Shown one piece after another: positions 28,270 to 53,234 of a stretch of DNA of 57,348 nucleotides; the first letter of the stretch is position 1; the number at the start of each line of letters is the position of its first letter. The stretch covers positions 1 to 57,348 of the forward strand of contig NHEP01000236.1 in the NCBI GenBank assembly GCA_002171515.1. The letters are read 5' to 3'. This DNA comes from a bacterium TMED88 (GTDB taxonomy: Bacteria > Myxococcota_A > UBA9160 > UBA4427). The notes beneath the pieces were generated by a model. The model made no database searches. It was not told the origin of the DNA and saw only the letters and a program-made list of their open reading frames with translations. Made by a program: the position numbers and the translations under genes.

Positions 28270-29715
28270 GTGAATGAATTCAGTTCCACAAGTCGTCGGT
28301 CCTCGCGATTCGCGATGGCCGCTGTTCTGGCGTTAGGCGCTGTGGCGATCGGGCTCCGGTTTCGGAATGCCTGGGTGTATCCGCTGGGTATGGGTTTCGA
28401 TGCTCAGGGGAATTGGGCTTATATCGATTCCCTCCGAAGCCTCTGGGTCTTGCCGGATCCCGAAACGACTTGGTCCGCCGCTCATCCGCCGCTCTTCTAT
28501 GCCCTTTCGGCCGCACTCAGCTTCGTGTTGGGCCATCCTGAACCTCATGCCGTCGTGATTGCGACCCGGTTCTTCTCGACGGCAGTCGGCTTAGGGGCCA
28601 TTGGGGCCATCATGGTCTGGGTCCGGCGGTTTGACCCCTCGCAACCGGAGCGCGCTTGGCTGTCCGGTGCCTTGGTTCTCTTTCTTCCGGTCCACATTTA
28701 TATGAGCGCGATGCTGAGCGAAGAGATTCTCGTTTCATCGCTGAGAACATTTGTGGTCCTCGGCGTTTTGACCGACTTGAGGGGCGATTCCGGTGTCGCT
28801 CGTGCTTGGATCTGGGGGGTCTTGGCGGGCCTCGCTTTGCTCACCAAGCTCTCGGGTCTTCTCTTGGTGATTGCAGCCGGTGGAGCTTACCTGCTCGCGG
28901 GTTGGAGTGGACGAGGGGTTAGGTGGGGCGCGGTCCGGGGGCTTGCTTTGGGTCTCGGCGCCTTTTGTACCGGAGGATGGTTTTATGTGTATCGATGGTG
29001 GACGAGAGGATATTTCTATCCGAGTGGCCTCGAGATACACCGCATCATGTTTGAGATGCCGCCTGGAGAGAGAACACTGTCAGACTATTTCTCTTTCCCG
29101 TTTTCTTCTCTGACGGGGTCGGATCTCCTGACAGCGGACCTGATTCACTCGGTTTGGGGTTCGACGTATGCGACGATTTGGTTCGACGGACATCGGCATT
29201 TTCTCCCTTTGGAGGCGCCTGGTTTGATGCTAGCGGGAGGGGTCATTGGGTTTCTCGGCCTGATCCCAACCGTAGCTTTCGTCATCGGATCTATTCGAGG
29301 CGCTCGGCGAATGGTGAAAAAGGCCAATCCGATTGACGGCCTTCTGCTGGGGTTAATTGTTTTCAATCTCGCTGGGTATGCGCTCTTTACATGGAGAAAC
29401 CCATGGTTCGCCACGCTGAAGGGGAGCTATCTTTTGGGTCTGATCGCTCCATTTGCGATCTATGCCAGCGAGTCTCTGTCCGCAGGGTGGCGTTTTTTGC
29501 GAGACCGGGCTCAAGTCGGCGCCTCGCTGGGGGCCGCCGGGCTCTTGATTCTTTGGATCACTGTCACGCTGACTTTTGCCTCGGAGGGTGTGTTCTCGAA
29601 ACGCGAATATCCGGGATTAGATTGGCGTAGAGCTTCGCCGAATCGGCCTCCGCTTCCGGATGAAGAAAATGAGAGTCTCAGGAATTCTCCGGTGTCAAAA
29701 GTTCATCCACGCTGA
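28270..29715 (+). CDS. polytopic GT-C fold glycosyltransferase (GT39/GT83-like)
   Basis: 481 residues with about 10-11 hydrophobic segments. The first periplasmic loop has FDAQGNWAYIDSL, where this fold carries an acidic catalytic residue, and the second has AHPPLFYAL, the HPP motif common in PMT_2-type transferases. Such enzymes move sugars from polyprenyl-phosphate donors to lipids, glycans or proteins on the outer face of the membrane. The tail after the last helix is polar. Its 3' end overlaps the convergent LTA-synthase-like gene by 38 nt. Start ATG or GTG near 28270; the acceptor is unknown. Confidence 0.75.
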   Translation: MNEFSSTSRRSSRFAMAAVLALGAVAIGLRFRNAWVYPLGMGFDAQGNWAYIDSLRSLWVLPDPETTWSAAHPPLFYALSAALSFVLGHPEPHAVVIATRFFSTAVGLGAIGAIMVWVRRFDPSQPERAWLSGALVLFLPVHIYMSAMLSEEILVSSLRTFVVLGVLTDLRGDSGVARAWIWGVLAGLALLTKLSGLLLVIAAGGAYLLAGWSGRGVRWGAVRGLALGLGAFCTGGWFYVYRWWTRGYFYPSGLEIHRIMFEMPPGERTLSDYFSFPFSSLTGSDLLTADLIHSVWGSTYATIWFDGHRHFLPLEAPGLMLAGGVIGFLGLIPTVAFVIGSIRGARRMVKKANPIDGLLLGLIVFNLAGYALFTWRNPWFATLKGSYLLGLIAPFAIYASESLSAGWRFLRDRAQVGASLGAAGLLILWITVTLTFASEGVFSKREYPGLDWRRASPNRPPLPDEENESLRNSPVSKVHPR

Positions 29716-32002
29716 CGATCTCCCGTTGCTCTCGGGTGATCTGGTGGGGTCCACTTCGGGCCGATTCAGTGGGCGGCTGGACCGTGATCGTCGCCTGCTT
29801 GAAAACGAGCTGAGCTGGCTGACCGGATCGATCGACCACTACGAAGCGGGCTTCGGCTTGATGGAGAGGTGAACCCACGATGATGCGATAGTTCAGACGT
29901 AAACGTTCGCCAATCTCAAGGGGGAGTTCCTCGGAGAGGAGAGGCTTCGGCTGGTCCGAGGAGAGCAGATTCGTCCTGAGAGTGATACGTCCGTCTTGCT
30001 CGTTCGCGGCGTGGACCGGATCCAGACGGACGTCGATGTCAAGTTGAACTTCAGCGCCGACGGGGAGCTCCAAGCCCTGCCCCCCGAAGATGATTTGATA
30101 GCGGGCTGGGCCCTCGAGGATGGGGATGGGCTCCTTTCCGATCAGAGCGATGGAGAGCGGTCCTGAGCGTCTCTCGCCATCGTCCTTTGCCTCAAAGAGC
30201 CACTCATTGAGCGCCTGAATCTCATTGGGGGCGAGCTCACCGGTCGCGGGAGATCGAGCTTGGAAGGGCCGGTCGGGAGGCATCGCGAAACGGCTACAGG
30301 CCGAGAGATCTTCCCGGCAAACGGCCAACTCACCGATCGGATCCGCGTGAAAGACTCTGCGTTGGTACGTGTTCGCAAAGGCCATGGGTCGGGGCCGGGG
30401 GTAGGTTCGGAAGAGGCTACGACCTCCGCCGGTGGCCGATTGCATTGGGGGCGAAGTTGGCGCGGCAGCAATGTAGTCGAGGATGGACACGGCCAGATCG
30501 CTTTGCACGAAGGGTGTGTCGATCCGCTGGGGCGAATCATCAGGCGTCAAAGCAATTAGAAAGCTCCAGTTGCGACTGAGCAGAAGCGTGATCGGGTCGA
30601 CGTTCGCCTGCTCGGGCAGACCACGTGATTCATCGCTCGTGATCAGCACAAGCGTATTCTCGAGAACGCCACGAGACTCAAGGGCTTGGATAAAATCGGC
30701 CAGTGAAGCGTCGGCGTAGCGAGCCGCTTTTTCGAATCCTGAGAGTTCGTTGAAGGCAGGCGTATTGGGCACGTTGTAGGGATGGTGAGTTCCGACGGTC
30801 AACAGGGTCATCATCCAGGGCTTCTTTTGCTTTTCGAGGACCTCGATTTCGTCGAGGGCTCCGTCGAAGAGCGTGGCGTCATCAACGCCCCAGTTTGTCC
30901 GCGATCGAGCCGTTGGAAAGGATGCATTGCCGAGGACGCGTTCAAAACCAATGCGGTTCATGAACTGATCTTTCAGCATAAAGCCCAATGGGGCGGCCTG
31001 GAGATAGACCGTCGTAAACCCGAGTTCCTTGAGGGCTTGAGGGAGGCAGGAAGGGCCTGTTTCTGGGTTGTATTCGGACATTCGAGGTACTGAGGTCCGG
31101 AGCTTCGGCCAAGCGCCGCACAGGAGGGCGAATTCCCCCCGATTGGTTTGCCGTTGTTGGGCAATGAAGCTGCTGTAGGCGATGTGCTCCCGGGCGAGTC
31201 GGTCTAATTCAGGCAGAGCCGGGTTCGCGATGACCCCTTGAGCCTCGGCGAGGCTCGGAATATGGGCGCCCGATAGAGCCTCTAGGAGAATGATCAGGAC
31301 GTTGGGGGTGGTGGCCGGAGCCTCCGGCCACCAGTGTCCGCTGAGGTTTGGGGGATCCTGCGGGCTGAGGGTAAAGAGCGGCTGCCTCGGGTCAGAGGCG
31401 GCGGGGGAGGCCCCTTGGCGAACTTGCGCTTCCATTAGGCTGATCTGGCGCCACTCCGCTCGGGCGATGTCGAGGGTCCAGCCAAGAGAAATCAAGTACA
31501 GCAGGAGGGCCGTTCCGAGAGTGGAGCGCACTGGAAGCCGCTGATGGGGTTCGATGCGTCCGGCCCACCAGGCTCCAAGGGCAGCGGCGACAACCACGGC
31601 CGCGGCGACGGCGGGAAACCCGGTCCGCAGCACTGACCCGAGCAGGAAGGTGGAGTGCGTGAGAAAGCCCGCGTAAGCGGCACGCAGATGCGATCCATTC
31701 GCGAGGATATGCTCGGCGTCGCCGAGACAGATCGCAATCCAAAGGGCCAGCAGAACTCTTGGTAGCCAGCGATGCCCGCGGGCCGCGGTCATTAAGGCCG
31801 AGGCCACGAGAAGGCCGCTGGCGACGTCCGAGAGGACGCCTCGTAGATCGAGGGCTCTGAGTGGAAGGTCTGTATGAATCCAAATGAGGGCGCGAAAAGC
31901 CAAGGGGGGCAGCAAGCCGCAGAACCACCATGCCGCTCCGGCGCGAAGAGCAGCCGACCGGGTCGATCCGGAGTGAGCGAAAGCCGTGGATTGACGATTC
32001 AT
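29678..32002 (-). CDS. LTA synthase / sulfatase family membrane phosphotransferase
   Basis: 774 residues. About five N-terminal membrane helices (to about 180) precede an extracytoplasmic alkaline-phosphatase-superfamily domain: PNVLIILLEALSG with metal ligand Glu241, and Thr286 in RQTNRGEF as nucleophile, as in LtaS. The later metal site, normally Asp-His, reads TSDESRG (Asp457-Glu458). A beta-rich C-terminal 150 residues may bind glycan. LtaS-like enzymes transfer phosphoglycerol to teichoic acids, or in Gram-negatives to periplasmic glucans or O-antigen. The direct substrate is unknown; the changed ligand makes activity uncertain. Confidence 0.78.
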   Translation of the reverse strand: MNRQSTAFAHSGSTRSAALRAGAAWWFCGLLPPLAFRALIWIHTDLPLRALDLRGVLSDVASGLLVASALMTAARGHRWLPRVLLALWIAICLGDAEHILANGSHLRAAYAGFLTHSTFLLGSVLRTGFPAVAAAVVVAAALGAWWAGRIEPHQRLPVRSTLGTALLLYLISLGWTLDIARAEWRQISLMEAQVRQGASPAASDPRQPLFTLSPQDPPNLSGHWWPEAPATTPNVLIILLEALSGAHIPSLAEAQGVIANPALPELDRLAREHIAYSSFIAQQRQTNRGEFALLCGAWPKLRTSVPRMSEYNPETGPSCLPQALKELGFTTVYLQAAPLGFMLKDQFMNRIGFERVLGNASFPTARSRTNWGVDDATLFDGALDEIEVLEKQKKPWMMTLLTVGTHHPYNVPNTPAFNELSGFEKAARYADASLADFIQALESRGVLENTLVLITSDESRGLPEQANVDPITLLLSRNWSFLIALTPDDSPQRIDTPFVQSDLAVSILDYIAAAPTSPPMQSATGGGRSLFRTYPRPRPMAFANTYQRRVFHADPIGELAVCREDLSACSRFAMPPDRPFQARSPATGELAPNEIQALNEWLFEAKDDGERRSGPLSIALIGKEPIPILEGPARYQIIFGGQGLELPVGAEVQLDIDVRLDPVHAANEQDGRITLRTNLLSSDQPKPLLSEELPLEIGERLRLNYRIIVGSPLHQAEARFVVVDRSGQPAQLVFKQATITVQPPTESARSGPHQITREQREIVSVDELLTPENS

Positions 32003-32153
32003 CTTTCAAGCCATCGATCGGTGAGCAATTTCGATCAGTGGTCTAGAGATGATAGGCAATCTCGGCGAGACGCCTGCCCCGCCCGGGCGAGACTGTCTGC
32101 GATAGGATTTCGTTGGTCGACGCCCAGTCCCGAGCGCCGAGAGAGGGTCGCAA

Positions 32154-33926
32154 ATGTCGAGTCAAGGAACGACCGGCGGCGAACAACCGAGTGCGTCGGT
32201 TGGGGGTCGGCTCTCGAACCGCCCTCTGTCCTGGTTGTTTGCCCTGCTTCTGGGAGGGACAGCAATTTTCCTCTCCAGCTTCTACGCCGAGCGAAATCTG
32301 CCCTTTCAAGATGAAGGCGCGACGCTCACTGCGGCGGCTCGAATCTTGAGGGGCGAAGTTTTCTACCGCGATATCGATGCCTACCCCTTCCCGGGAGCGG
32401 CCTACTTGGCGGCCGGGGCCATGGCGGTTTTTGGAGAACATCTGTCGGTGGCGCGCGGGCTGGCGGCCGCCTTATTTTGCTCGTGGGTGCTTGCGCTGTA
32501 TTTCGTCGCGCTCCGATGCCTTGGTTTTGCCCGAGCAGCCCTCTTCGGATCGGCTTTACTCGCCTGGAAATTTCTCGCTTGGCCAGCTTTCAGCACCTAC
32601 ATGTATTCTGACCTTGCCTTTGCGGCGGGGTGTGGTGTGCTGGCTTGCTTTTTCGTGTCCGACAGGCCGCTCGGTTCCCTTCGCCTGATTGGGGCGGGCT
32701 TGTTGACCGCGATCGCAGTCACGGGAAAACAAAATCTCGGGCTCTACCTGGGCGCGGCCAGCTTAGCCATCCTGATGCCCGTCGCGTTGCCCTGGCGCCT
32801 TCCCGGTGTGACTTCTTGGCGGCCTTTCTGGTTGTTCGGTCTTTCCGCGGCAGCGCCCCTGGTCGGCGCGAGTCTCTGGTTCGCCAGTCATGACGTGCTT
32901 GGCCAACTCCTGTACAGCGGGCTCCTGCGGCCTTTGACCGGGTATCTGCCCACGAGTGGAATTGATTTCTCGCCGATGTTGGCCTGGTGGGAATTGGGTT
33001 CGCTTCAAGGGCCGGATGCCGCTTCTTATTTCATTCTCGATTATTTCCAAGTGCTCATGGTCGGCGCCCTGCCGTGGCCTCAATGGGAAGGCGTACTTTG
33101 GCTGTGTGGGGAAATCTTTAGTCGGGGGGTCTATACGGCCGTCACGATATCAGTCGTGTGGTGGTGGGCCCGTATTGTTGGAATTGTCCGCGAACGAGAT
33201 GGACAGAGGGCAGGGGATGGTCAGCCAGCCCTCGTGCTGCCGTTTGGGTTGTTGGCTTTGGCGATGCTTGCTTCGGCATTTCCCCGGGCGGATTTTTTTC
33301 ACATCATCAGCGTGGCGCCGCCTGTGCTTCTGCTCCTTATCCTCCTCGGCGCGCGGGTGGATGCGCCAATGCGTTGGCCTCGGAGCGCGATCGCCGGAGT
33401 GACCCTTTTGCTCGCGGTCAGCGCCAGCCTCGCTTGGGTTCAGCGTTCTCTCCTCACGGAGCATGTCGTATTGGAACGAGCCGATGTCTGGGTAGCTCCG
33501 GAGAATGTCTGGATGGAATCGTTGGTTAAAACGATTCGCGATCAAGTGCCAGAAGGAGAGCCCTTCTATGTGTACGGCCATGAAGCCCAGCTTTATTTCC
33601 TGACGGGCCGCTTTTTTTCTTGGCCTTTTTCTCAACTCTATCCTGGCCAGGAAGGAGACGACGGGGGGCAAGAAATTGTTGATCGGTTGGTGGAAGCTCC
33701 CCCATTACTCATCGTCCGTGGGCGACAGTTCTGGCCTGGGATGCCCAGGGCCGCCAAGTATGCGCCCAGGCTGGATCGTTGGGTGAGGGCAAACTACGGA
33801 CCCGACCCAGCTCCTTTTCGCCTCCACCCCCTTCCGGAAAATGTTTCACCGCCGCAGCCCCAGTGGATGACACTGTTGAAGCCAAGGGGGACGCCTCTCC
33901 TGAGTCCAAAATCGACCGGCGGCTGA
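32154..33926 (+). CDS. polytopic GT-C fold glycosyltransferase
   Basis: 590 residues with about 11 hydrophobic segments. The first loop reads ERNLPFQDEGATLTAAARILRG, placing Asp-Glu where GT-C enzymes have their catalytic acid, then DIDAYPFPGAAYLAAG. The C-terminal 120 residues after the last helix form a soluble domain that includes FYVYGHEAQLYFLTGR, a pattern shared with the two minus-strand paralogues downstream (residues such as GDTILDLSASSLFYVLSNR). GAGAGAGGG precedes the ATG. It converges with the next gene with 38 nt between. Confidence 0.75.
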   Translation: MSSQGTTGGEQPSASVGGRLSNRPLSWLFALLLGGTAIFLSSFYAERNLPFQDEGATLTAAARILRGEVFYRDIDAYPFPGAAYLAAGAMAVFGEHLSVARGLAAALFCSWVLALYFVALRCLGFARAALFGSALLAWKFLAWPAFSTYMYSDLAFAAGCGVLACFFVSDRPLGSLRLIGAGLLTAIAVTGKQNLGLYLGAASLAILMPVALPWRLPGVTSWRPFWLFGLSAAAPLVGASLWFASHDVLGQLLYSGLLRPLTGYLPTSGIDFSPMLAWWELGSLQGPDAASYFILDYFQVLMVGALPWPQWEGVLWLCGEIFSRGVYTAVTISVVWWWARIVGIVRERDGQRAGDGQPALVLPFGLLALAMLASAFPRADFFHIISVAPPVLLLLILLGARVDAPMRWPRSAIAGVTLLLAVSASLAWVQRSLLTEHVVLERADVWVAPENVWMESLVKTIRDQVPEGEPFYVYGHEAQLYFLTGRFFSWPFSQLYPGQEGDDGGQEIVDRLVEAPPLLIVRGRQFWPGMPRAAKYAPRLDRWVRANYGPDPAPFRLHPLPENVSPPQPQWMTLLKPRGTPLLSPKSTGG

Positions 33927-33964
33927 GTCTCGGGAAGCCCGCTGCTTGGGTGGGAGTCGGCTTT

Positions 33965-35602
33965 TTACCGAGTTGGTGCGTCTTTGCGTTTGGCCCGCAG
34001 CTGATTTACCCGCTCCTTCGGGAGCATCAAGACGAATCGCTCGTAGGGCCCGGCGAGGGCGTAGCGAGCCTTGACCCATTGCCAGAGCAGCGGGGAACTT
34101 CTCTGCACCGCCCGGTCTTTTCGTTCGTCGAAAATCCAACCGGGAAAAATCACCAAAGCGGGTGGGTTGGCGTCTAGAACCCTCAGGAAACCCCGCTCCT
34201 CCGAGGCGTCGAGAAATGTGCCGGGCATAATGACATCAGCTTGCCCTGGGCCCATTCGATTGCTGAGGACGTAAAAGAGGGATGAGGCTGAAAGATCAAG
34301 AATGGTGTCCCCCGGCCGTGTCCAGCGCTGGATTTGCTGAATTTGTTCATCGACGCGGAGAAGGCCCGTGTCGGCCTTGACCCCGATTCGTCCCCGGAGG
34401 CTGGCCATCGGTTCCTGCCCCAGGTGTCCCGGCCAGAAAATGCGATCGCTCCCCATGAAGAGAATCCATAGCCCGAGTCCCGCGGTGCCCAGGGCCCACC
34501 TTGCCGGTCGCGGTAGGGCAAAGGTTCCTGCCTCTCGCCGGCCGAAAGCCCGCCACGTGAGATGAGTGAGTAATAGACAGATCGGGGGCAGGGCCGAGTA
34601 GAGGTGGGGCGCGTCAGAGCGCCCAAACGACCGGCCGTAGTACACGCCTCCCCATACAACGATGGCCAAGAGAAGGGGTTCGGGAAAAGCGAATCCCTTT
34701 CTTTGTGAACGGACCCAAGTCCAGACCAGTCCCGCTGCATACCCAATGTAGAGCAAAGTCCAGGCCCGAAATTGAAGCACCACAAACCATTCATGCAGGT
34801 ACCGGCGGGTCCACTGCTCGGGCAGCCAAAGCCATGCCGGGATTGCGAGGCTCTGTTGCTCGGTCATTGCGACGGGGCGAATCAGGACCTCCTGCCAAAG
34901 CGTTTCCGCAGAGGCTTGAGAGAGCATCCAGAGCAGGACAGGGAGGGCCACGAGGACGATTCCAAATCCATAGATGAGCCCATCTCGAATCCATTCCCGA
35001 GGATTACGGTGGACCGCGATCAGCGCGACAGTGACACCACATGCGGTCGCAAAAGCCGGAGTTAACCGGAAAGCCAGAGCCAACCCGGTCAGCGCACCGG
35101 ACAGCAGGAGTTGTCGGCGCTGGCGATGGTCCAAGTAGCGGGCAAAGGCAATTAAGGCCAGCACGCTGATGACGAGATAGCGATAGCCGAATAGAAGTTG
35201 TTTTTGGTGAGCGCTTTCTGCGGCCACGGCGAGGAGCAGTGCTCCAAAGAGCGCGAAGCGGGCGGGCATCACGCGCCGCCCCAAAAAATAAAGGCCGACG
35301 ACTAGGCCAACATTGAATAAAGCGTACAGAACGCGCGCCATGAAGACGCCAGGCGGATCGATCCCGTAGGCGATCCAGGCGATCAGGAGGTGTCCGGGGG
35401 GGAAGACGAAGAATACGTCCTCGTACAGTGCGCCTCCCGCGTGAAGCTGCATGGCTGCGTACAGCGGCCATCCTTCGTCCAGCAGGTTGAGGTTGGTGCC
35501 GACGAAAGCCCATTCGAAGACCATGCTCACCGACACAAGAAGGATGACGTGGGGCCAAGTCGATCGCGTCTCATGTCCCGCTTTCGAGGCCGAAGACATC
35601 AA
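33965..35602 (-). CDS. polytopic GT-C fold glycosyltransferase
   Basis: 545 residues, about 10 membrane segments. First loop: NLNLLDEGWPLYAAMQLHAGGALYEDVFF, again with a DEG motif at the expected catalytic position, followed by VFPPGHLLIAW. The C-terminal soluble part has DTILDLSASSLFYVLSNRM, similar to the neighbour at 32154. Its ATG overlaps the stop of the next upstream gene by 4 nt, so it is the last gene of a sulfatase-GT-GT minus-strand operon. Confidence 0.75.
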   Translation of the reverse strand: MMSSASKAGHETRSTWPHVILLVSVSMVFEWAFVGTNLNLLDEGWPLYAAMQLHAGGALYEDVFFVFPPGHLLIAWIAYGIDPPGVFMARVLYALFNVGLVVGLYFLGRRVMPARFALFGALLLAVAAESAHQKQLLFGYRYLVISVLALIAFARYLDHRQRRQLLLSGALTGLALAFRLTPAFATACGVTVALIAVHRNPREWIRDGLIYGFGIVLVALPVLLWMLSQASAETLWQEVLIRPVAMTEQQSLAIPAWLWLPEQWTRRYLHEWFVVLQFRAWTLLYIGYAAGLVWTWVRSQRKGFAFPEPLLLAIVVWGGVYYGRSFGRSDAPHLYSALPPICLLLTHLTWRAFGRREAGTFALPRPARWALGTAGLGLWILFMGSDRIFWPGHLGQEPMASLRGRIGVKADTGLLRVDEQIQQIQRWTRPGDTILDLSASSLFYVLSNRMGPGQADVIMPGTFLDASEERGFLRVLDANPPALVIFPGWIFDERKDRAVQRSSPLLWQWVKARYALAGPYERFVLMLPKERVNQLRAKRKDAPTR

Positions 35603-37395
35603 GGCGCCACCCTCGGTGAGGGCCTGCGCGCACGGCGATACTCGAAGAGGGGTGTGTGGGGTCTGTCCTGCAGCGCCTCTCCGAATGCTTCCGGAGCCAG
35701 GATTGAAAAACGGAAAGCCGGTGAATTGGGTGGAAGACTGACTTCATGCCATCCCCCCTGAAGTGTGATGGTCCCCGGTGTCACCGGCTGTCCGTCCAGC
35801 TGCAGGGTCGGAGCAGCCTCCGTCGGCGAGCGCTCGTCTGGTTCTGCAAGAGCCGTAACGTGATAGGGCCCAGGGCGCACGATTTCGATCCGTCCCGTCC
35901 TGCTTTCTTCGGGACCAGTGGCGCGAGTGGTGAAACCTAAGACATAAAGATCCCCGTCCAACGGCACGTAGTGGGTGAGGAGATAGCGCGCAGCTTCTTC
36001 GGGCAGAAGGTTGAAGCGAGCGCTTCGAATCCAAAGTGGAGCTTGACTGGACCGCATGGCATCGACGAGCGGTCCCTTAAACCATGGGGCGAACATTTGT
36101 ATGTGCGCACGTCCGTGATACCAGTAGTAGCCTCGGTGGGGCCGAAATAAGGCGCTGCCTGCGCTGTCGATGACAACGTCATTGGGTTCGGTGTGGCGTT
36201 CGACTTGAGAGAGCAGCCGCAATTGATCGTCAAGCGTGCTCGTGCCCCAGACAAATCCGAGTTGCGCAGGCAGGAGGAGCAGCGGCACTCCATAAAGCAG
36301 AGGTAACCAGGCGCTGGACCGCCCGGTTGCCTCGTGGCGTCGGGTCATCCAACGCACGCCTTCGCACCATGCGCGAACAGCGGAGACACCGATGAGCCAA
36401 GAAATCAATACAAAATTGTAGGGAAAGGGAGCCCGGACGAAGAGCAGCCCACCCGCTGCGACCCCCAGCGGAAGGGACCAGAAATGACGCCGCCCGCCGG
36501 TCATGTAGACCAAGGCCCCCGCAATCAGCAATGCGCTTGAGAAGCGCGTTTCTTCCCAATAGGGTTGGATGTATTGGCTTGCGCTGAATGAGGGGTACAG
36601 GTTTTCGTGTTCAATGGCCTCGAGCACATTGATCTGCCAAGCGGATTCCAGCAAGCCGAAGAGTGCGCCGACCCCTAAAAAAATCAGACCGACGAGAAGC
36701 GCGCCCCCCGCGAAGGCGAATGGCCGATCGATGCGAAAGGTTCCGACCCGAATCCGCGCGGCGGGGCCGTGTTGGAGCAGGCCACCGATCCACAGGAGGC
36801 CGAGGGCTCCCCCGCCGAGGAGCAAGATTTTTTGCGTCATTCCGATTGCCACGATCAACAGGCCGCCCGCCACGATCGCGAGGCTACGTGACCGATTCTT
36901 TTGGCCAACTTCGACGAGGGCCAGACAGGTCAGAAGGGTGAAGGCTGCCCAGTTGTCCCCTCGATAGTCGATGGCTGACATGAGACCGAAGCCGATGGCG
37001 GGGACGACGGCCAGGGTGAGCCAAACTTCCGGACCACTTCGATGCGTTTTCCAACTCGCCCAGGCGAGGGCAGCCAGAGCCGCAAGGACATATCCGAAGG
37101 CGATTTTTCGGAATTGGAGAGTGTTTTCGACGAATCCGGCGTTGGCGTTGTAAAGCAGCGCGTGCGAGGTGTAGCCAAGGGGCAGGTGATGTTCGTAGAA
37201 ATCGAGATACGGGACTTGCCCGTCTGCGACCAGCCAAGTGGCATGGCCCCATTGAAACTCATCGATCGACAGAAAACGAGTTTGCGAAAATTGATACACG
37301 GAGACGAGCACGAAAAACACTGCGGCAATGAGCCCAACTTGGACTCCAATGCTGACCGCGCGATTGAGCCCGTGCGTCTCTCGAACTCTACTCAT
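35599..37395 (-). CDS. polytopic GT-C fold glycosyltransferase with C-terminal beta domain
   Basis: 598 residues, about 11 membrane segments. First loop: TRFLSIDEFQWGHATWLVADGQVPYLDFYEHHLPLGY, with IDEF where its paralogues have LDEG. After the last helix comes an NDVVIDSAGSALFRPHRGYYWYHG segment and then about 150 residues of beta-rich sequence (IEIVRPGPYHVTALAE, ITLQGGWHEVSLPP) that may be a carbohydrate-binding-like module. I prefer ATG 37395, which overlaps the sulfatase-fold gene stop by 8 nt; 37413 would add six residues. Confidence 0.74.
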   Translation of the reverse strand: MSRVRETHGLNRAVSIGVQVGLIAAVFFVLVSVYQFSQTRFLSIDEFQWGHATWLVADGQVPYLDFYEHHLPLGYTSHALLYNANAGFVENTLQFRKIAFGYVLAALAALAWASWKTHRSGPEVWLTLAVVPAIGFGLMSAIDYRGDNWAAFTLLTCLALVEVGQKNRSRSLAIVAGGLLIVAIGMTQKILLLGGGALGLLWIGGLLQHGPAARIRVGTFRIDRPFAFAGGALLVGLIFLGVGALFGLLESAWQINVLEAIEHENLYPSFSASQYIQPYWEETRFSSALLIAGALVYMTGGRRHFWSLPLGVAAGGLLFVRAPFPYNFVLISWLIGVSAVRAWCEGVRWMTRRHEATGRSSAWLPLLYGVPLLLLPAQLGFVWGTSTLDDQLRLLSQVERHTEPNDVVIDSAGSALFRPHRGYYWYHGRAHIQMFAPWFKGPLVDAMRSSQAPLWIRSARFNLLPEEAARYLLTHYVPLDGDLYVLGFTTRATGPEESRTGRIEIVRPGPYHVTALAEPDERSPTEAAPTLQLDGQPVTPGTITLQGGWHEVSLPPNSPAFRFSILAPEAFGEALQDRPHTPLFEYRRARRPSPRVAP

Positions 37396-38854
37396 CGAGA
37401 TAGCCAAGGGCACGAAGTCGTTCGTCCAGTTCGGGGGGCGTCTGCTTCAGGGGAACCATAGGGACGGCCCGCTCGGCATAGCGCCGGATTTCCGGGGGAA
37501 GAGGTTCCTGCCCTGTTCCCTCGGCGCGCCACATGCCTCCGGGCTCCCAGCGGTAACGCTGTCCCCGAGCCTCGCCGATCTCGGGCGCGGCGACCCCGGG
37601 TGTGCGCCAAGCCCCTTGGAGCCCTCCGGCTCTGAGGAAGCCTTGTTCGTCATAGGCGCTCAGCTGGCCGCCGATGTCGCAGAAGAGCCATCGCTCCGGG
37701 AGGCTGGACTCTCCGCGGACGATGGGGCCGAGGGCGATGCCTTCAGTATCCGCGGGCGAACTGAGTCCGGCAGCCTCCATCAAGGTGGGCATGATGTCCA
37801 CATGCCCGACAGGATCGTGCAGCCGTCCAGGGGGAAGGTTGGGTCCAGTGAGGAGCATCGGAATGTGCGCGACCTCGGGTGTCGTGGTGTGGGTGTGCAT
37901 GAAGTGGAATCGGGCCTCCCCGAGGCTCTCCCCGTGGTCAGCCGTCACCAAGATGATCAGGGGGCGCTCGCCTGCGCTCGCCCGGGCTTGATTGACGAGC
38001 CGGCGAATTTCGCGATCGGCATAGTGGATCTCGCCCGCATAGCGCTCCCTGTATTGACTGGGACGCCGGAGTTCTTCGATCGCCTGGTACGGGGGAATCA
38101 CACCACGGCCCTGGTTGCTGCGGCCGATCGGGAGCGGCCTGTCTCGACCTGCGTCGGGCGAGGCCATGGCGGCCTGGTCCGATTCCGGAGGCGTGTAGGG
38201 GCCGTGGGGATCCTGATAGTGAACCCAGAGAAAACGAGGTGGCCTTGGATCGCTGGATTCAAGCCAGTGGATGGCTTCGTCGGTGGTGTCTTGGGCGAGT
38301 CGCTCGACCACCTGAGGGCGGTTCAGTTCGGGGCTTTCCAGCCGGTCGTCGAACCTTTCGAAGCCGAGGTCAAGGCCGGTGCCGCGGGTCAATAAAATGT
38401 TGCTGACAAATGCGGCGGTTTGGTAACCGGAGCTCTGAAAATACTCGGCGAGTGTGGGGATGCCCTCAAGTCTGGTCTCACCGTTGAGATGTCCAACGCT
38501 GTGCTGGCGAGTTGGTTTTGAGGTCATGATGGAAGCGTGGGCGGGGACTGTTCGGCTGGCCGCGGCAATGGCCCGGGTGAAGACGACCGATTCGCCGGCC
38601 AACTCGTCCAGAAAGGGGGTGGCCTGACTGCCGGCGCCGTATGCCCCCACATAGTCTGCACGAAGGGTGTCAATGGTGATCAGGAGGACGTCTGGCGCCT
38701 CGGGCGGCTGATCGCCGAGGCACGCTGTCACGAAAAGGAGGACCGCCGCAGCGACGGCGCGCTTGGGGGGCTGGGCAGATGGTGCCCTCGGCCCGACCGC
38801 GCGGCTCGGGGTGATTTGAGCGCCCGCTATGAAGATTCTGGCATTCCAGCACAT
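37388..38854 (-). CDS. sulfatase-fold lipoprotein with Thr at the nucleophile position
   Basis: 488 residues. A hydrophobic stretch ending in the lipobox VTAC (Cys45) suggests an outer-membrane or periplasmic lipoprotein, with an unusually long n-region. The alkaline-phosphatase core is clear: VLLITIDTLRADYVGAYG metal site, SRTVPAHASIMTS where sulfatases have CxPxR, and VTADHGESLGEARF, HTHTTTPEVAHIPML and VGHVDIMPTLMEAAGL. The formylglycine Cys/Ser is replaced by Thr, so classic sulfate-ester cleavage is doubtful; phosphodiesterase or phosphotransferase chemistry is more likely. ATG 38854 has GAGAAG upstream. First gene of the minus-strand operon. Confidence 0.8.
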   Translation of the reverse strand: MCWNARIFIAGAQITPSRAVGPRAPSAQPPKRAVAAAVLLFVTACLGDQPPEAPDVLLITIDTLRADYVGAYGAGSQATPFLDELAGESVVFTRAIAAASRTVPAHASIMTSKPTRQHSVGHLNGETRLEGIPTLAEYFQSSGYQTAAFVSNILLTRGTGLDLGFERFDDRLESPELNRPQVVERLAQDTTDEAIHWLESSDPRPPRFLWVHYQDPHGPYTPPESDQAAMASPDAGRDRPLPIGRSNQGRGVIPPYQAIEELRRPSQYRERYAGEIHYADREIRRLVNQARASAGERPLIILVTADHGESLGEARFHFMHTHTTTPEVAHIPMLLTGPNLPPGRLHDPVGHVDIMPTLMEAAGLSSPADTEGIALGPIVRGESSLPERWLFCDIGGQLSAYDEQGFLRAGGLQGAWRTPGVAAPEIGEARGQRYRWEPGGMWRAEGTGQEPLPPEIRRYAERAVPMVPLKQTPPELDERLRALGYLDE

Positions 38855-39007
38855 CGGACTTCTCGACACGGTGGGTGAGCATACGCGAGGCACGATTCAT
38901 CCGCCGGTCGCTTATACTGAGCACTCAATCGATTCCAATCGAATCGGACCGCTCGGGAGGGCGTCAGGCCTTTTCGGTTGGCGGATCAGGAAGGAATTCT
39001 GGCTTTA

Positions 39008-40516
39008 ATGCCGAATCTGTCCGTGCCCAGTCCCGAAATCGAACAGAATCGAGAGTCCGCCTTGGCGGGTTGCCGGGGGGGGTTGTTCCTCTTTGGAGCG
39101 GACGATCCCGATATTTTGAGACAGTTCCTCGCGGATATTCCAACCGCCGCTGAGGGTTGGCTGAGTGAGATTGTCGTGATGCTCGCTGAGCCGCAGTCGG
39201 TGGAGGGACTCGAGTCCCAAGCCGAGTCGATTTTGGGGGGGCGGCCCTTCCGGGTTCGTTTCCAACCGCCTCCGCGGGTCTCGCGCTGGGGAGAGCTCCG
39301 CAAAGCAGCCTTTGAACTCGCCTTGGCCCGCCCGATTGATCACGTGGTGGTCATGCAGGCGAATTCCTCACAGCCAGCACGTGCATTGGAGGCGATCCGG
39401 GCTGCAGTGGAGGCAGATCCTCAGCGGGTCCTGCTCGTGACTCGAGCTCAGCCGGGGAGGGTGGGGGCGAGACTGCGCCATCGGCTGATGGCGGGATTAC
39501 AAAACAGGATCCTCGGGCTTCGAATTCGCGATTACGCGACCCCGCTGCGGGTGTATCCGAGCGACGTGCTGCGCCGAATTCCATTCCTGCTCGATGCAGA
39601 TCACGAGCAAATTGAGGCCGAACTGCTGATCCAATGTCGCTGTCTCGGGGTTCCCGTTGAGGAGCTCGACGTCCTTGAGGCCGCGCCGGGAGATGGAAGC
39701 GGTCACGACGACTGGCTTTCAGGCTGGAGGGCCTGCGTGACGGCGATTGGCTTACGCCTGCATCAAGCCCACTTGACCCGAGACGGCCGATATCTCGTCG
39801 ACCACGATATTCATTACACCCTGAAGTCTTCTTCGACGGGTTCCCACATGCAGATTGTCGACGCGATCAAGCCGCAGAGTGAAGTCCTCGACCTAGGCTG
39901 TTCTCAAGGGTTGCTCGCGCGTCCGCTTTTACACAAACGTGTGCGGGTGACTGGGGTGGACCGCGGCGCTGGGGAGCAGCTGGCCGATGAGCTCGCTGAG
40001 TATCACTCCCGCGACCTCGAGGAGCCCCTCCAGTTACCCGTAGGTCGAGTCTTTGATTATGTTGTCTGCGCGGATGTGATCGAACATGTCCAGAATCGCG
40101 CGCAACTGCTTCGAGGCGCACGTCGTCACCTCAAGCAGGATGGCCGACTGATTATCTCGACGCCCAACATCGCCTTGTGGTTCTACCGGATGTCGTTGCT
40201 AGTCGGCCGCTTCGAATATGGCCCCCGGGGCGTTCTGGATGAGACCCACGTTCATCTCTTTACGCGCTCAACTTTCAAACGAGAGGTTGAACGCGCAGGG
40301 TTTCAAGTTCTGAAACAGCGGGTCACGGCTTTGCCCTTTGAAGTCGTATTTCATTCGACGGGTCGGAGTCGGTTGGTGCGTGGACTGGCACAGGGTTATC
40401 ACGCGCTTGCTCAATTCTGGCCCTCGCTCTTCGCCTATCAATTTATCCTAGAGGCCGAAATCATGACCCTCGACGATGACTCTGAAGAGGTCGGAGGTCC
40501 GGTCGACGTTGGATAA
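39008..40516 (+). CDS. fusion of a GT2-like domain lacking DxD and a SAM-dependent methyltransferase
   Basis: 502 residues. Residues about 20-230 resemble a GT-A family 2 (dolichol-phosphate-mannose-synthase-like) domain, but the donor-binding DxD position reads VVVMQANSSQPAR, so the metal-binding acids are gone. Residues about 270-440 form a class I methyltransferase: VLDLGCSQGLLA, then a VTGVDRG strand, FDYVVCADVIEHV and GRLIISTPN. The C-terminus has a small hydrophobic region. ATG 39008 has AAGGA upstream at a long spacing; TTG 38978 is an alternative. The end overlaps the convergent GT-TPR gene by 56 nt. It probably methylates a glycan or lipid-linked sugar; the first domain may bind the donor without catalysis. 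Confidence 0.78.
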   Translation: MPNLSVPSPEIEQNRESALAGCRGGLFLFGADDPDILRQFLADIPTAAEGWLSEIVVMLAEPQSVEGLESQAESILGGRPFRVRFQPPPRVSRWGELRKAAFELALARPIDHVVVMQANSSQPARALEAIRAAVEADPQRVLLVTRAQPGRVGARLRHRLMAGLQNRILGLRIRDYATPLRVYPSDVLRRIPFLLDADHEQIEAELLIQCRCLGVPVEELDVLEAAPGDGSGHDDWLSGWRACVTAIGLRLHQAHLTRDGRYLVDHDIHYTLKSSSTGSHMQIVDAIKPQSEVLDLGCSQGLLARPLLHKRVRVTGVDRGAGEQLADELAEYHSRDLEEPLQLPVGRVFDYVVCADVIEHVQNRAQLLRGARRHLKQDGRLIISTPNIALWFYRMSLLVGRFEYGPRGVLDETHVHLFTRSTFKREVERAGFQVLKQRVTALPFEVVFHSTGRSRLVRGLAQGYHALAQFWPSLFAYQFILEAEIMTLDDDSEEVGGPVDVG

Positions 40517-42392
40517 GGGCTTCGTATCGTTCGCGCAGCGCCTTATCCCCGGGTTGAATCGATTGGGCGGTTTCCCATGCGATCTGGGCCCCTTCGAGAT
40601 CTTCTAGATCCTCTCTTACCTCACCTAGATGGACCCAGCCCTCGTAAAGCCCTGGGGCGAAGGCGACGGATTGCTCGAGCGAGGCTTCAGCGGCGGGCAG
40701 CCTGCCAGCGCGTTGAAGCGCCTCGCCCGCGCAGAATTGGGAAGCACCGACACGATGGCCCAATGAGGCCGATTTCAAGCAATACACAGCTGCGATGGCG
40801 GGTTCATGAGGGCTCAGCAGGAGGCCCAGACGAAGAGGTCCTTGCTGTGGGTCGAGGCGCATGCCTTCTCGTTCGCTGGCGTTGGCTTTTTGAATTTGCC
40901 CGCCGAGTCGATAAGCGACGGCGAGCCGGAAATGGAAATTCTGAACGCCTGGGTTTAAATCGACTGCTTGTTGAAGCTCTTGAATCGCGAGAGCGGTCTC
41001 CCCACGTTGGAGCGCGTCGATCGCCACCATGCGATGCTGCCCAGCCATGTTTTGCCCGTCACGACCAAAGGGCGGAGGCACTGCGACTGCGAAGAGTCCG
41101 CCGACTGCAAGGGCTCCAAGTAAAAACGACCAAGGCGCTCCATAGTTTCGAATGCGGTCAGAGAAAGCGGCTGCGCCCAGCGCAATGCCTGCGGGTACGA
41201 GGGCCAGTCGGTAGCGATCGATAATGTGGAATGCGATGACCCCGACAGCTTGAGTGAACAAAAAAGCGCTGATCAGCCAGGGGCCGGGATCTCGGCGATA
41301 GAAAGAGCCGGCTAAGCCAGCGAAAGTGAGGGGGACGGCGAACCATGCGCCCAGAAACAGCCAAGAGAGGACCGGAGCCCGATCTCTGACAAAATAGAAG
41401 CTCACATTGTCTGTGAATTCGTAGTGGTGCAGGAGAAGCCGTCCCTTGTTGATGAACCGGGTCAGGCTGTCGGTCGGATGAGTCATGATTCCCGACCATG
41501 TCTCTGCCCACCAAAAATCAGACGACTCGGCGAAGCCAAGCGGTCTCCCGACGCGTCGCTCCGCTTCGGCTTTTCCCGACCGGCCCTCGCCGGAGGGGCC
41601 GGCCTCGGCGAAGGGCAGCGTGGGGTTAAGGCCGTCGGCCCCGGGTCGATTGCCAATGTAAAAATTGATTCCTGAACTCCATGGCAAGACGAGGGCTTCC
41701 CCGGAAACCGCGGCATTGCGCGTGGCCGTCGCGATGAGAAAAGGGGTCAGGCCGACCCCTATCCAGATCAGCGTCATCGCCATGGCACCGCGACTTCGCG
41801 TGTGGGTACGCCAGATCCCCCAAAGCAGCAGCAGCGGGACCGCAGTGACGAAGTTGCTCTTTAAGAGAACGGCAGCGCCGGCGGCCAGGCCCAGCCAAAG
41901 AGGCCGCCAGCGATGGGCGAGGGCGAGAACGAGGGTGCCGGTGGCGGCAAAAACTTCAAGGGTGGTCTTGAGAAGCTGGCCCTCGAAATGGACCAACGGC
42001 CCGTACAACGCGACGGCTAGGCCGGCCCATGCCGCTGCCCAAGGGCTGTTCGAAAGCCTTCCGGCCATCATGGCGGTTAAAACCGCTGTGCCTGCGCCCA
42101 CGCCTGCCTGGATGAGTCGAATCGTTGAGATCTCGGCGCCGAGTCCGTGCAAGCCCGCGAGAAGGTAGAGGTATCCCGGCTCGACGAAAAAGGGTTCGCC
42201 TCCACCGAGCCAATCCCCGGAAGCAATCCGACGGGCCCACCCGTCGTAATAGCCGGCGTCCAAGAACGCGGTCTGTCCGAACGGCGTTTCTCCCAGCTGC
42301 CAAAAGAAGATCCACCGAAGGGTCAGTGCGACGAGGCCGACGCCGAAGAGAACCGGAGTGAAGGAGGAGGCGCCCGGTGTCCGAGGCTCCAT
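40461..42392 (-). CDS. GT-C glycosyltransferase with C-terminal TPR domain
   Basis: 643 residues. About 10-11 membrane segments; first loop AFLDAGYYDGWARRI with the acidic site, then FFVEPGYLYLLAG. A periplasmic loop includes GINFYIGNRPGADGLNPTLP, a pattern of PMT_2-type proteins with TPR tails. From about 470 to the end there are four or five TPR units (ALQRGETALAIQELQQAVDLNPG, AGRLPAAEASLEQSVAFAPGLYEGWVHLGEV). It starts 11 nt after the purC stop on the same strand, an unexpected operon partner. Function: probable protein or lipid glycosylation. Confidence 0.77.
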   Translation of the reverse strand: MEPRTPGASSFTPVLFGVGLVALTLRWIFFWQLGETPFGQTAFLDAGYYDGWARRIASGDWLGGGEPFFVEPGYLYLLAGLHGLGAEISTIRLIQAGVGAGTAVLTAMMAGRLSNSPWAAAWAGLAVALYGPLVHFEGQLLKTTLEVFAATGTLVLALAHRWRPLWLGLAAGAAVLLKSNFVTAVPLLLLWGIWRTHTRSRGAMAMTLIWIGVGLTPFLIATATRNAAVSGEALVLPWSSGINFYIGNRPGADGLNPTLPFAEAGPSGEGRSGKAEAERRVGRPLGFAESSDFWWAETWSGIMTHPTDSLTRFINKGRLLLHHYEFTDNVSFYFVRDRAPVLSWLFLGAWFAVPLTFAGLAGSFYRRDPGPWLISAFLFTQAVGVIAFHIIDRYRLALVPAGIALGAAAFSDRIRNYGAPWSFLLGALAVGGLFAVAVPPPFGRDGQNMAGQHRMVAIDALQRGETALAIQELQQAVDLNPGVQNFHFRLAVAYRLGGQIQKANASEREGMRLDPQQGPLRLGLLLSPHEPAIAAVYCLKSASLGHRVGASQFCAGEALQRAGRLPAAEASLEQSVAFAPGLYEGWVHLGEVREDLEDLEGAQIAWETAQSIQPGDKALRERYEALIQRRPDLRPLQSHRRGS

Positions 42393-51914: not shown

Positions 51915-53234
51915 ATGTCAAGCGAACGCCTAGAAGAGCTGGCGCGACGAATCGACGACCGTACGGCCCGCATCGGAGTCATCGGTTTGGGGTACGTCGG
52001 TCTGCCTTTAGCCCTCGAGTTCGCCAAGGCCGGCTTCGAAGTGGTGGGTTTTGACGTCGACGTGAGAAAGGTGAGGGACATTGGGCGGGGCGTTTCCTAT
52101 ATCGGCGACGTGTCCACAGAAGATTTGCAGGCGATGGTGAATGCAGGGCGTCTGCAGGCGACTGAGGATTTTGACAAGCTGCACGGTGTCCAAATCGTCA
52201 ACATCTGCGTGCCCACGCCTTTGACTCGAACCAAGGATCCCGACATATCCTTTATGGCTCGGGCGGTTGAGCAAATCAAAGAAAGACTGCACCCAGGCAC
52301 TCTCGTGATTTTGGGTTCGACGACTTACCCGGGCACAACGGATGAGCTCTTTGTTCCTGAGCTTGAACAGACCGGCCTTAAAATTGGACGAGACTTTGCT
52401 TTAGCCTTTGCCCCGGAGCGAATCGATCCGGCGAATCAAGCTTTTCAGGTTCGAAATGTGCCGAAGGTTGTGGGCGGTGCGACCCCCCTATGCACGGAAC
52501 TGGCCTGTCGAGTGTACGACACCATTTTTGATCAGACCGTGCCTGTTTCATCGACGCGAGCTGCGGAAATGGTGAAGTTGCTGGAGAACACATTTCGCGC
52601 GATCAATATCGGTTTGGCGAATGAAGTCGCTTTGATGTGCGAGCGACTTGACCTCGATGTTTGGGAAGTCATTGAGGCTGCGGCCACCAAGCCCTACGGA
52701 TTTATGAAATTCTTGCCCGGTCCCGGTTTGGGCGGTCACTGTATTCCGGTTGACCCAAGCTATCTGTCTTGGAAACTCAAGTCTTTGAATTTTTCGGCTC
52801 GCTTCATCGAATTGGCGACAGAGATCAACAGCGGAATGCCCGAACACGTGGCGGACCGCATCGCTGAATTGCTGAATGAGGACCGCTTGGCGGTCAATGG
52901 ATCCCGGATTCTGATCTTGGGTGTGGCGTATAAGAAGGATGTTGGGGATATGCGGGAGTCCCCAGCGATCGATGTGATCGGCACTCTGGCGCGTCGAGGT
53001 GCGGAAATCGCATACCACGATCCCTATGTGGACGAGTGTGAAATCGACGGCGTGCTTTACAAAAACAGCGATTTGACCGACGAAGCCATCGCGGCTGCGG
53101 ATATCGCCGTGATCCTGACGGATCACACAAGCGTCGACTATGCCCGGCTCGCGGAAAAGGGAAGGCGTATCTTCGATTCCCGCAACGCGACCCAGGGGCT
53201 GACCGATCACCGAGAGAAGATCACGAAGCTTTAA
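51915..53234 (+). CDS. nucleotide-sugar dehydrogenase (UDP-N-acetylhexosamine 6-dehydrogenase type, WbpA/WecC-like)
   Basis: 439 residues. NAD site IGVIGLGYVGLPLALEFAKAG, the linker VNICVPTPL, and the catalytic Cys in GPGLGGHCIPVDP. The pattern fits WbpA/WecC dehydrogenases that make UDP-HexNAcA for O-antigen or capsule. It may supply an acidic sugar to surface glycans such as those of the island at 28-42 kb, but it is 10 kb away. A GC-rich hairpin-like stretch follows (about 53238-53274) without a T-run. Confidence 0.92.
   Translation: MSSERLEELARRIDDRTARIGVIGLGYVGLPLALEFAKAGFEVVGFDVDVRKVRDIGRGVSYIGDVSTEDLQAMVNAGRLQATEDFDKLHGVQIVNICVPTPLTRTKDPDISFMARAVEQIKERLHPGTLVILGSTTYPGTTDELFVPELEQTGLKIGRDFALAFAPERIDPANQAFQVRNVPKVVGGATPLCTELACRVYDTIFDQTVPVSSTRAAEMVKLLENTFRAINIGLANEVALMCERLDLDVWEVIEAAATKPYGFMKFLPGPGLGGHCIPVDPSYLSWKLKSLNFSARFIELATEINSGMPEHVADRIAELLNEDRLAVNGSRILILGVAYKKDVGDMRESPAIDVIGTLARRGAEIAYHDPYVDECEIDGVLYKNSDLTDEAIAAADIAVILTDHTSVDYARLAEKGRRIFDSRNATQGLTDHREKITKL

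Follow-up and report, generated by a model that had tools for sequence, protein, structure and literature searches.

A recurring gene module of GT-C glycosyltransferases, Thr-type phosphatase-fold enzymes and a degenerate GT2-methyltransferase fusion in uncultured Myxococcota: a candidate for periplasmic glycan decoration

Introduction

Multi-component (PMC8035078) and three-component (PMC11127046) transmembrane glycosylation systems are the nearest described precedents for the locus considered here, and from the GT-C fold of their transferases it follows that sugars are taken from polyprenyl phosphates and that the reaction takes place in the periplasm (PMC11127046, PMC8035078). In S. mutans, GT-A/flippase/GT-C systems are accompanied by the LtaS-type enzyme SccH, which adds GroP to the sugar that the GT-C enzyme has added (PMC11754754).

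The window analyzed in this study, a stretch of 57,348 nucleotides from the uncultured bacterium TMED88, contains an island of eight genes that resembles both kinds of system in part. Like the Gtr, CsbB/GtcA/YfhO and GT136 systems, it has ArnT/PMT_2-type GT-C enzymes as candidate final transferases (g4 and g5, and g3 by homology), and DPMS/ArnC-type GT2 genes adjoin some versions of the module; unlike them, it has several GT-C enzymes per cluster, no GtrA was found, and the island's sole GT2 is a degenerate domain joined to a methyltransferase (PMC8035078, PMC11127046). Like the streptococcal Scc/Gac rhamnose side-chain cluster (SccN/M/P/Q with SccH), it encodes GT-C enzymes together with an LtaS-family-like phosphotransferase, which in Scc/Gac decorates the added sugar; in contrast to Scc/Gac, the host is Gram-negative, no rhamnan backbone genes were seen, an additional Thr-type putative lipoprotein and a methyltransferase are present, and the LtaS-like enzyme (g2) has DE in place of DH (PMC11754754). 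The limited open-access literature yielded no description of such a cluster, and no paper on GT-C enzymes and a sulfatase in Myxococcota, on an oligosaccharyltransferase in Myxococcota or on such an enzyme combination.

Layout and setting of the island

The genome that carries the window amounts to 5.16 Mb in 266 contigs and is 80.9% complete. The eight open reading frames lie at positions 28270-42392, with exactly the limits given beforehand, and third-position GC is coding-like in all of them (membrane-span counts throughout are hydropathy-based):

g1, 28270..29715, + strand: polytopic GT-C-type glycosyltransferase, 481 aa (PMT_2 E 6e-5, below cut-off)
g2, 29678..32002, - strand: LtaS/OpgB-like membrane AP-superfamily enzyme, 774 aa (PF00884 E 5e-31)
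g3, 32154..33926, + strand: GT-C glycosyltransferase homologous to g4, 590 aa (hhalign to g4 E 1.6e-21)
g4, 33965..35602, - strand: GT-C glycosyltransferase, core gene of the module, 545 aa (PMT_2 E 4e-9; AF2 model)
g5, 35599..37413, - strand: GT-C-fold protein with a C-terminal beta-rich segment, 604 aa, overlapping g4 and g6 (AF2 pLDDT 65)
g6, 37388..38893, - strand: sulfatase-fold putative lipoprotein with Thr nucleophile, 501 aa (PF00884 E 1e-47; SRTVPAH)
g7, 38978..40516, + strand: degenerate DPMS/ArnC-like GT2 fused to a class I SAM methyltransferase, 512 aa (Pfam, profile comparison, motif alignment)
g8, 40461..42392, - strand: GT-C-type protein with a TPR tail, 643 aa (PMT E 0.04 and TPR matches)

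One flank of the island is formed by pnp, dut, a beta-lactamase-family gene, cdsA and a luciferase-family gene, the other by purC, purF and a glutamine-synthetase-family gene. The strands alternate (g1 +; g2 -; g3 +; g4, g5 and g6 -; g7 +; g8 -), the only overlapping operon-like run is g6-g5-g4, and g8 comes next after purC, 12 bp away and in the same orientation. Neither the island, as the initial annotation had noted, nor the 20 flanking genes scanned showed a flippase, polymerase or priming transferase. A gene of the UDP-glucose/GDP-mannose dehydrogenase family, a possible supplier of nucleotide sugars, lies 9.5 kb off the island (51915-53234). Both of the large enzyme families of the island are numerous in the genome (24 PMT_2 matches and 38 sulfatase-family matches, their distribution over the genome being judged by eye and given no weight as a sign of clustering).

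GT-C enzymes

The initial annotation had counted five polytopic GT-C enzymes, and this number was right, with g4 identified by PMT_2 and its AF2 model, g3 by homology, g5 by its model, and g1 and g8 by weak PMT matches. For g4, the Pfam match to PMT_2 is over the cut-off (E 4e-9), and the AF2 model, built from 15 sequences, has a pLDDT of 81 and a pTM of 0.84. Its best match in the PDB is ArnT with undecaprenyl phosphate (5f15; E 3.5e-8, TM about 0.58), followed by AglB, AftA, STT3, PglB and ALG enzymes; structural matches of the GT-C models hold at the level of the fold, the identity of g4 to ArnT, an undecaprenyl-P-Ara4N:lipid A transferase, being 14% with no arn operon beside the gene. A sequence-based PDB search with the g4 profile gave nothing relevant. 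The full length of g3 is homologous to g4 (hhalign E 1.6e-21), and relatives of g3 are present in genomes G001, G004, G006, G014, G021, G064 and G202.

No Pfam match was obtained for g5 even at E 1, and its AF2 model was built from seven sequences with a pLDDT of 65, yet the first 28 PDB matches of this model are all GT-C enzymes or GT-C-like subunits, including PIG-U. The beta-rich segment that ends g5 in the model (about residues 482-570) could bind carbohydrate; one CBM match was recorded for g5, and it is not significant. Judged from the models, the predicted GT-C fold appears well supported in g4 and moderately so in g5, while g1 and g8 are the least well supported of the five. Relatives of g1 occur in G001 (74% identity), G007 (50%) and G035 (28-31%). 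The weak PMT match of g8 (E 0.04) is joined by TPRs, its only close ortholog is in the sister genome G001 (79%), and paralogs at 27-33% are widespread, so that g8, whose GT-C/TPR family is rich in paralogs, is probably a neighbor and not part of the core.

A C-terminal segment previously proposed to be common to three of the transferases was clear between g3 and g4 (E 2e-9), just suggestive between g4 and g5 (E 2e-4) and not detected between g3 and g5; the three-way similarity was dropped on this account.

Phosphatase-fold enzymes

Both g2 and g6 match PF00884, as expected from the earlier description of two phosphatase-fold enzymes. The membrane helices at the N terminus of g2 and its PF00884 domain with a Thr nucleophile are those of the LtaS/OpgB family, and phosphoglycerol transferase I and LtaS models are matched partly and weakly. 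Seven members of the g2 family could be aligned reliably (rows L015 and L016 were left out of the count), and all seven keep the N-terminal Glu, the Thr nucleophile and the HH motif and have Asp-Glu (DE) where LtaS/OpgB enzymes have the Asp-His (DH) metal pair, because of which the activity of g2 could differ. The enzyme is a probable transferase of phosphoglycerol or another phospho-group. It is a lone gene in five relatives (G060, G048, G003, G024 and G027), and both g2 and g8, the latter not being conserved in place, were rejected as core members and are attached loosely to the module. Two lone g2 homologs (L249, L250) lie near a purL-like gene and the island adjoins purC and purF, which is possibly a coincidence.

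The second enzyme, g6, had been described as a sulfatase-fold lipoprotein. The fold was borne out, and a lipobox-like LLFVTAC can be read from its sequence; activity as an FGly sulfatase was rejected, since the nucleophile at the site SRTVPAH is Thr instead of Cys/Ser, with T-V-P-A-H in place of the motif Cys/Ser-x-Pro-x-Arg. The same Thr is found in all 15 aligned AP-fold enzymes of the clusters (g6 and 14 others), which makes FGly-sulfatase activity unlikely for the module. Cys occurs at this site in another AP-fold gene, located on a contig of G014, and in other sulfatase-fold proteins of the window's own genome.

GT-C enzymes combined with an AP-superfamily phosphotransferase are also the gene logic of GPI assembly. 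The island could, by the same logic, serve the synthesis of a glycolipid or lipid anchor (GPI-like or a lipoglycan), with sequential GT-C transfers onto a lipid and phospho-substituents added by AP-superfamily enzymes, and PIG-U and ALG-type enzymes are indeed among the structural matches. These matches are fold-level only, however, the island yielded no PI or GlcNAc-PI enzyme and nothing ties the acceptor to a lipid, which leaves this explanation quite improbable.

The GT2-methyltransferase fusion

The closest named relatives found for g7 belong to MAGs of the Myxococcota. Its methyltransferase half matches Pfam PF13489 (E 8e-22) and conserves the glycine-rich SAM-binding motif VLDLGCSQG of class I SAM methyltransferases. 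A profile that included one canonical fusion relates the N-terminal half to GT2 enzymes of the DPMS/ArnC type, and g7 aligns across both domains with the canonical GT2-methyltransferase fusions of the phylum at 26-28% identity. Those fusions keep DDxSxD-like, HGDGQ and GSR-type motifs. In contrast, among 15 orthologs of the g7 clade, DDxSxD is gone, GSR is not conserved and the DxD region reads RGDGxHP or worse, with QANSSQP in the window copy. On average, the g7 orthologs share 38% identity over the GT2 half and 72% over the methyltransferase half, whereas in nine canonical paralogs the order is reversed (GT2 50%, methyltransferase 42%). The initial annotation of g7 as a fusion therefore holds for its architecture and its methyltransferase, and the reading of the other half as an active GT2 was rejected because the donor-binding motifs are lost across the clade. 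From the alignment, the GT2 domain looks dead, and constraint has shifted to the methyltransferase half.

Recurrence in relatives

A search for conserved clusters, suggested in the initial annotation, was positive: g7, g4, g3, Thr-type AP enzymes and further GT-C enzymes recur together in many genera. Genes in the relatives were called by an ORF picker that places their starts approximately, and some of the partners (SGNH, acyltransferase-like) were named by inspection. The recovered clusters include the following:

G021: SGNH-AP-AP-g3-g4-2OG-g4-GT-C-g7-AP
G006: 2OG-g4-GT-C-g7-AP
G058: 2OG-SGNH-MBOAT-g4-g4-AP-g7-GT-C-GT-C
G010 and G016: acyltransferase-like-g7-GT-C-g4-AglB-like
G064: multi-span-g2-g7-2OG-AP-2OG-g3-GT2-methyltransferase
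G035: AP-g1-g5-g7-g6-g1
G202 (another order of the class): g3-AP-g4-g7-2OG

Among 61 genomes, g7 orthologs were found in 12, g4 in 13 and both in 11, g4 being present in 11 of the 12 genomes with g7 vs 2 of the 49 without it (47 have neither; Fisher p about 2e-9). Across the 80 genomes of the order, g4 was found in 17 and g5 in 6; the relatives are MAGs in many contigs, and absence from them is weak evidence. At least one multi-span gene neighbors g7 in all 16 genomes in which orthologs were found, that of G077 fitting no assigned family. In addition, g5 adjoins g2 in G067 and G068, with a g6-like gene beside g5 in G067. The G058 cluster includes an MBOAT acyltransferase, and SGNH- and acyltransferase-like genes in other clusters were recognized by inspection and tblastn. 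A 2OG-Fe(II) oxygenase family (PF13640) recurs in the clusters at loci L129, L130, L131, L134, L139, L145 and L239 and is absent from the window; it possibly provides a hydroxylation step.

Recurrence in other genera makes the grouping more than chance and bears on the explanation that there is no single pathway, the island being a variable locus beside housekeeping genes that has gathered unrelated envelope genes. Such a collection would fit the alternating strands, the solitary g2 genes elsewhere, the poor conservation of g8 in its place, and the separate contigs on which g4 and g7 lie in G035 and G070; however, the association of g7, g4, g3, AP enzymes and other GT-C enzymes is repeated in different genera, in another order as well, and at genomic sites that are unrelated. 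This argues against an unrelated collection for the core, and the explanation as a whole is very unlikely, although for g2 and g8 it is possible. The gene set is modular, with g7 as its signature gene, and the eight members of the island do not make up a single fixed pathway.

Synteny of the island extends to the sister genome G001, where g7 is split by a contig break. Island proteins are 71-82% identical to those of G001 (90% in the methyltransferase half of g7), and most flanking proteins are 85-97% identical. By analogy with surface-glycan genes, this faster divergence of the island proteins was counted in favor of glycan decoration.

Protein glycosylation was also considered, in which the GT-C enzymes would finish a lipid-linked oligosaccharide for transfer to proteins by an AglB/STT3-like oligosaccharyltransferase, or some of them would be protein O-glycosyltransferases. 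AglB, STT3 and PglB share the GT-C fold with the island's enzymes, and an AglB-like enzyme lies inside the modules of G010 and G016, the G010 copy having AglB_L1 and AglB core domains with readable DHH and WGDG motifs and the G016 copy being 53% identical to it. Forty of 61 relatives have STT3-like genes, the window's own genome has one, which adjoins a DPMS-like GT2 and further multi-span genes, and STT3, AglB and PglB are among the PDB matches of g4 and g5. These matches reflect the common GT-C fold, however; the oligosaccharyltransferase-like gene is found in two clusters only, the island itself has none, although Pgl/Agl N-glycosylation loci include one, and LtaS-like and methyltransferase parts are atypical of such loci. 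Protein glycosylation is accordingly a rather unlikely explanation. A broader scheme resembling the lumenal half of the eukaryotic N-glycan or GPI pathways, in which serial GT-C enzymes would build a lipid-linked glycan in the periplasm, Thr-type AP enzymes would add phospho-substituents and an AglB-like enzyme would transfer the product to proteins in some relatives, has a slim chance of applying.

Sugar donors and flippase

The island has no active GT-A polyprenyl-P-sugar synthase, its sole GT2 being g7 with its motifs lost. DPMS-type GT2 genes lie beside the module in G064, G004 and G007, and eight relatives of one of these module-adjoining genes are encoded elsewhere in the window's own genome as candidate donor makers. 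The genome-wide flippase search was for GtrA (PF04138), which was not found in the own genome, 81% complete, and is absent from 54 of the 61 genomes; a Gtr-type system with GtrA was rejected on these results. At a second locus of the own genome (L214; G000:C190:538-8218), an AglB/STT3-like enzyme is encoded along with a DPMS-like GT2 and multi-span genes.

Proposed pathway and significance

An undescribed decoration pathway for a glycan, lipid or protein had been suggested for this DNA, and decoration is the best reading of a module that recurs, although not of eight genes as one fixed pathway. The island is probably a module that decorates a glycan in the periplasm from polyprenyl-phosphate donors and includes phospho- and methyl-modification, because the GT-C fold implies the donors and the site, GT2 enzymes are encoded elsewhere in the genome, and SccH of S. 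mutans offers a precedent. Against it stand the lack of an active donor-making GT2 and of a flippase in the island, the alternating strands in place of one operon, and g2, which is alone in five relatives and has DE for its DH pair.

The donor type, order of steps, acceptor and all substrate specificities that we infer are as follows. DPMS/ArnC-type GT2 enzymes encoded elsewhere in the genome would make polyprenyl-phosphate-linked sugars, some flippase would move these across the membrane, and the GT-C enzymes (g4 and g3 as the core, g5 and g1 as variable members) would add single sugars one by one to an acceptor. The Thr-nucleophile AP-superfamily enzymes would attach or strip phosphoryl groups, with g2 as an LtaS/OpgB-like transferase of phosphoglycerol or a similar group and g6 as a putative periplasmic lipoprotein acting on phosphoryl groups. 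In the cytoplasm, g7 would methylate the glycan, its precursor or a lipid-linked sugar, and its degenerate GT2 half may serve as a binding scaffold. What is decorated would be a glycan or glycolipid of the cell surface, modified where the inner membrane faces the periplasm. LPS could be the acceptor (lpxC lies within the window), and so could another surface glycan, a lipid or proteins.

These results define a recurring gene set for surface modification in a group of bacteria not yet cultured. Its marker gene is g7, in which the glycosyltransferase half has decayed and the methyltransferase half is conserved. They suggest a Gram-negative counterpart to the decoration by GT-C and LtaS-like enzymes known from Gram-positive cell walls, and the gene set makes it a testable question what such series of GT-C enzymes build.
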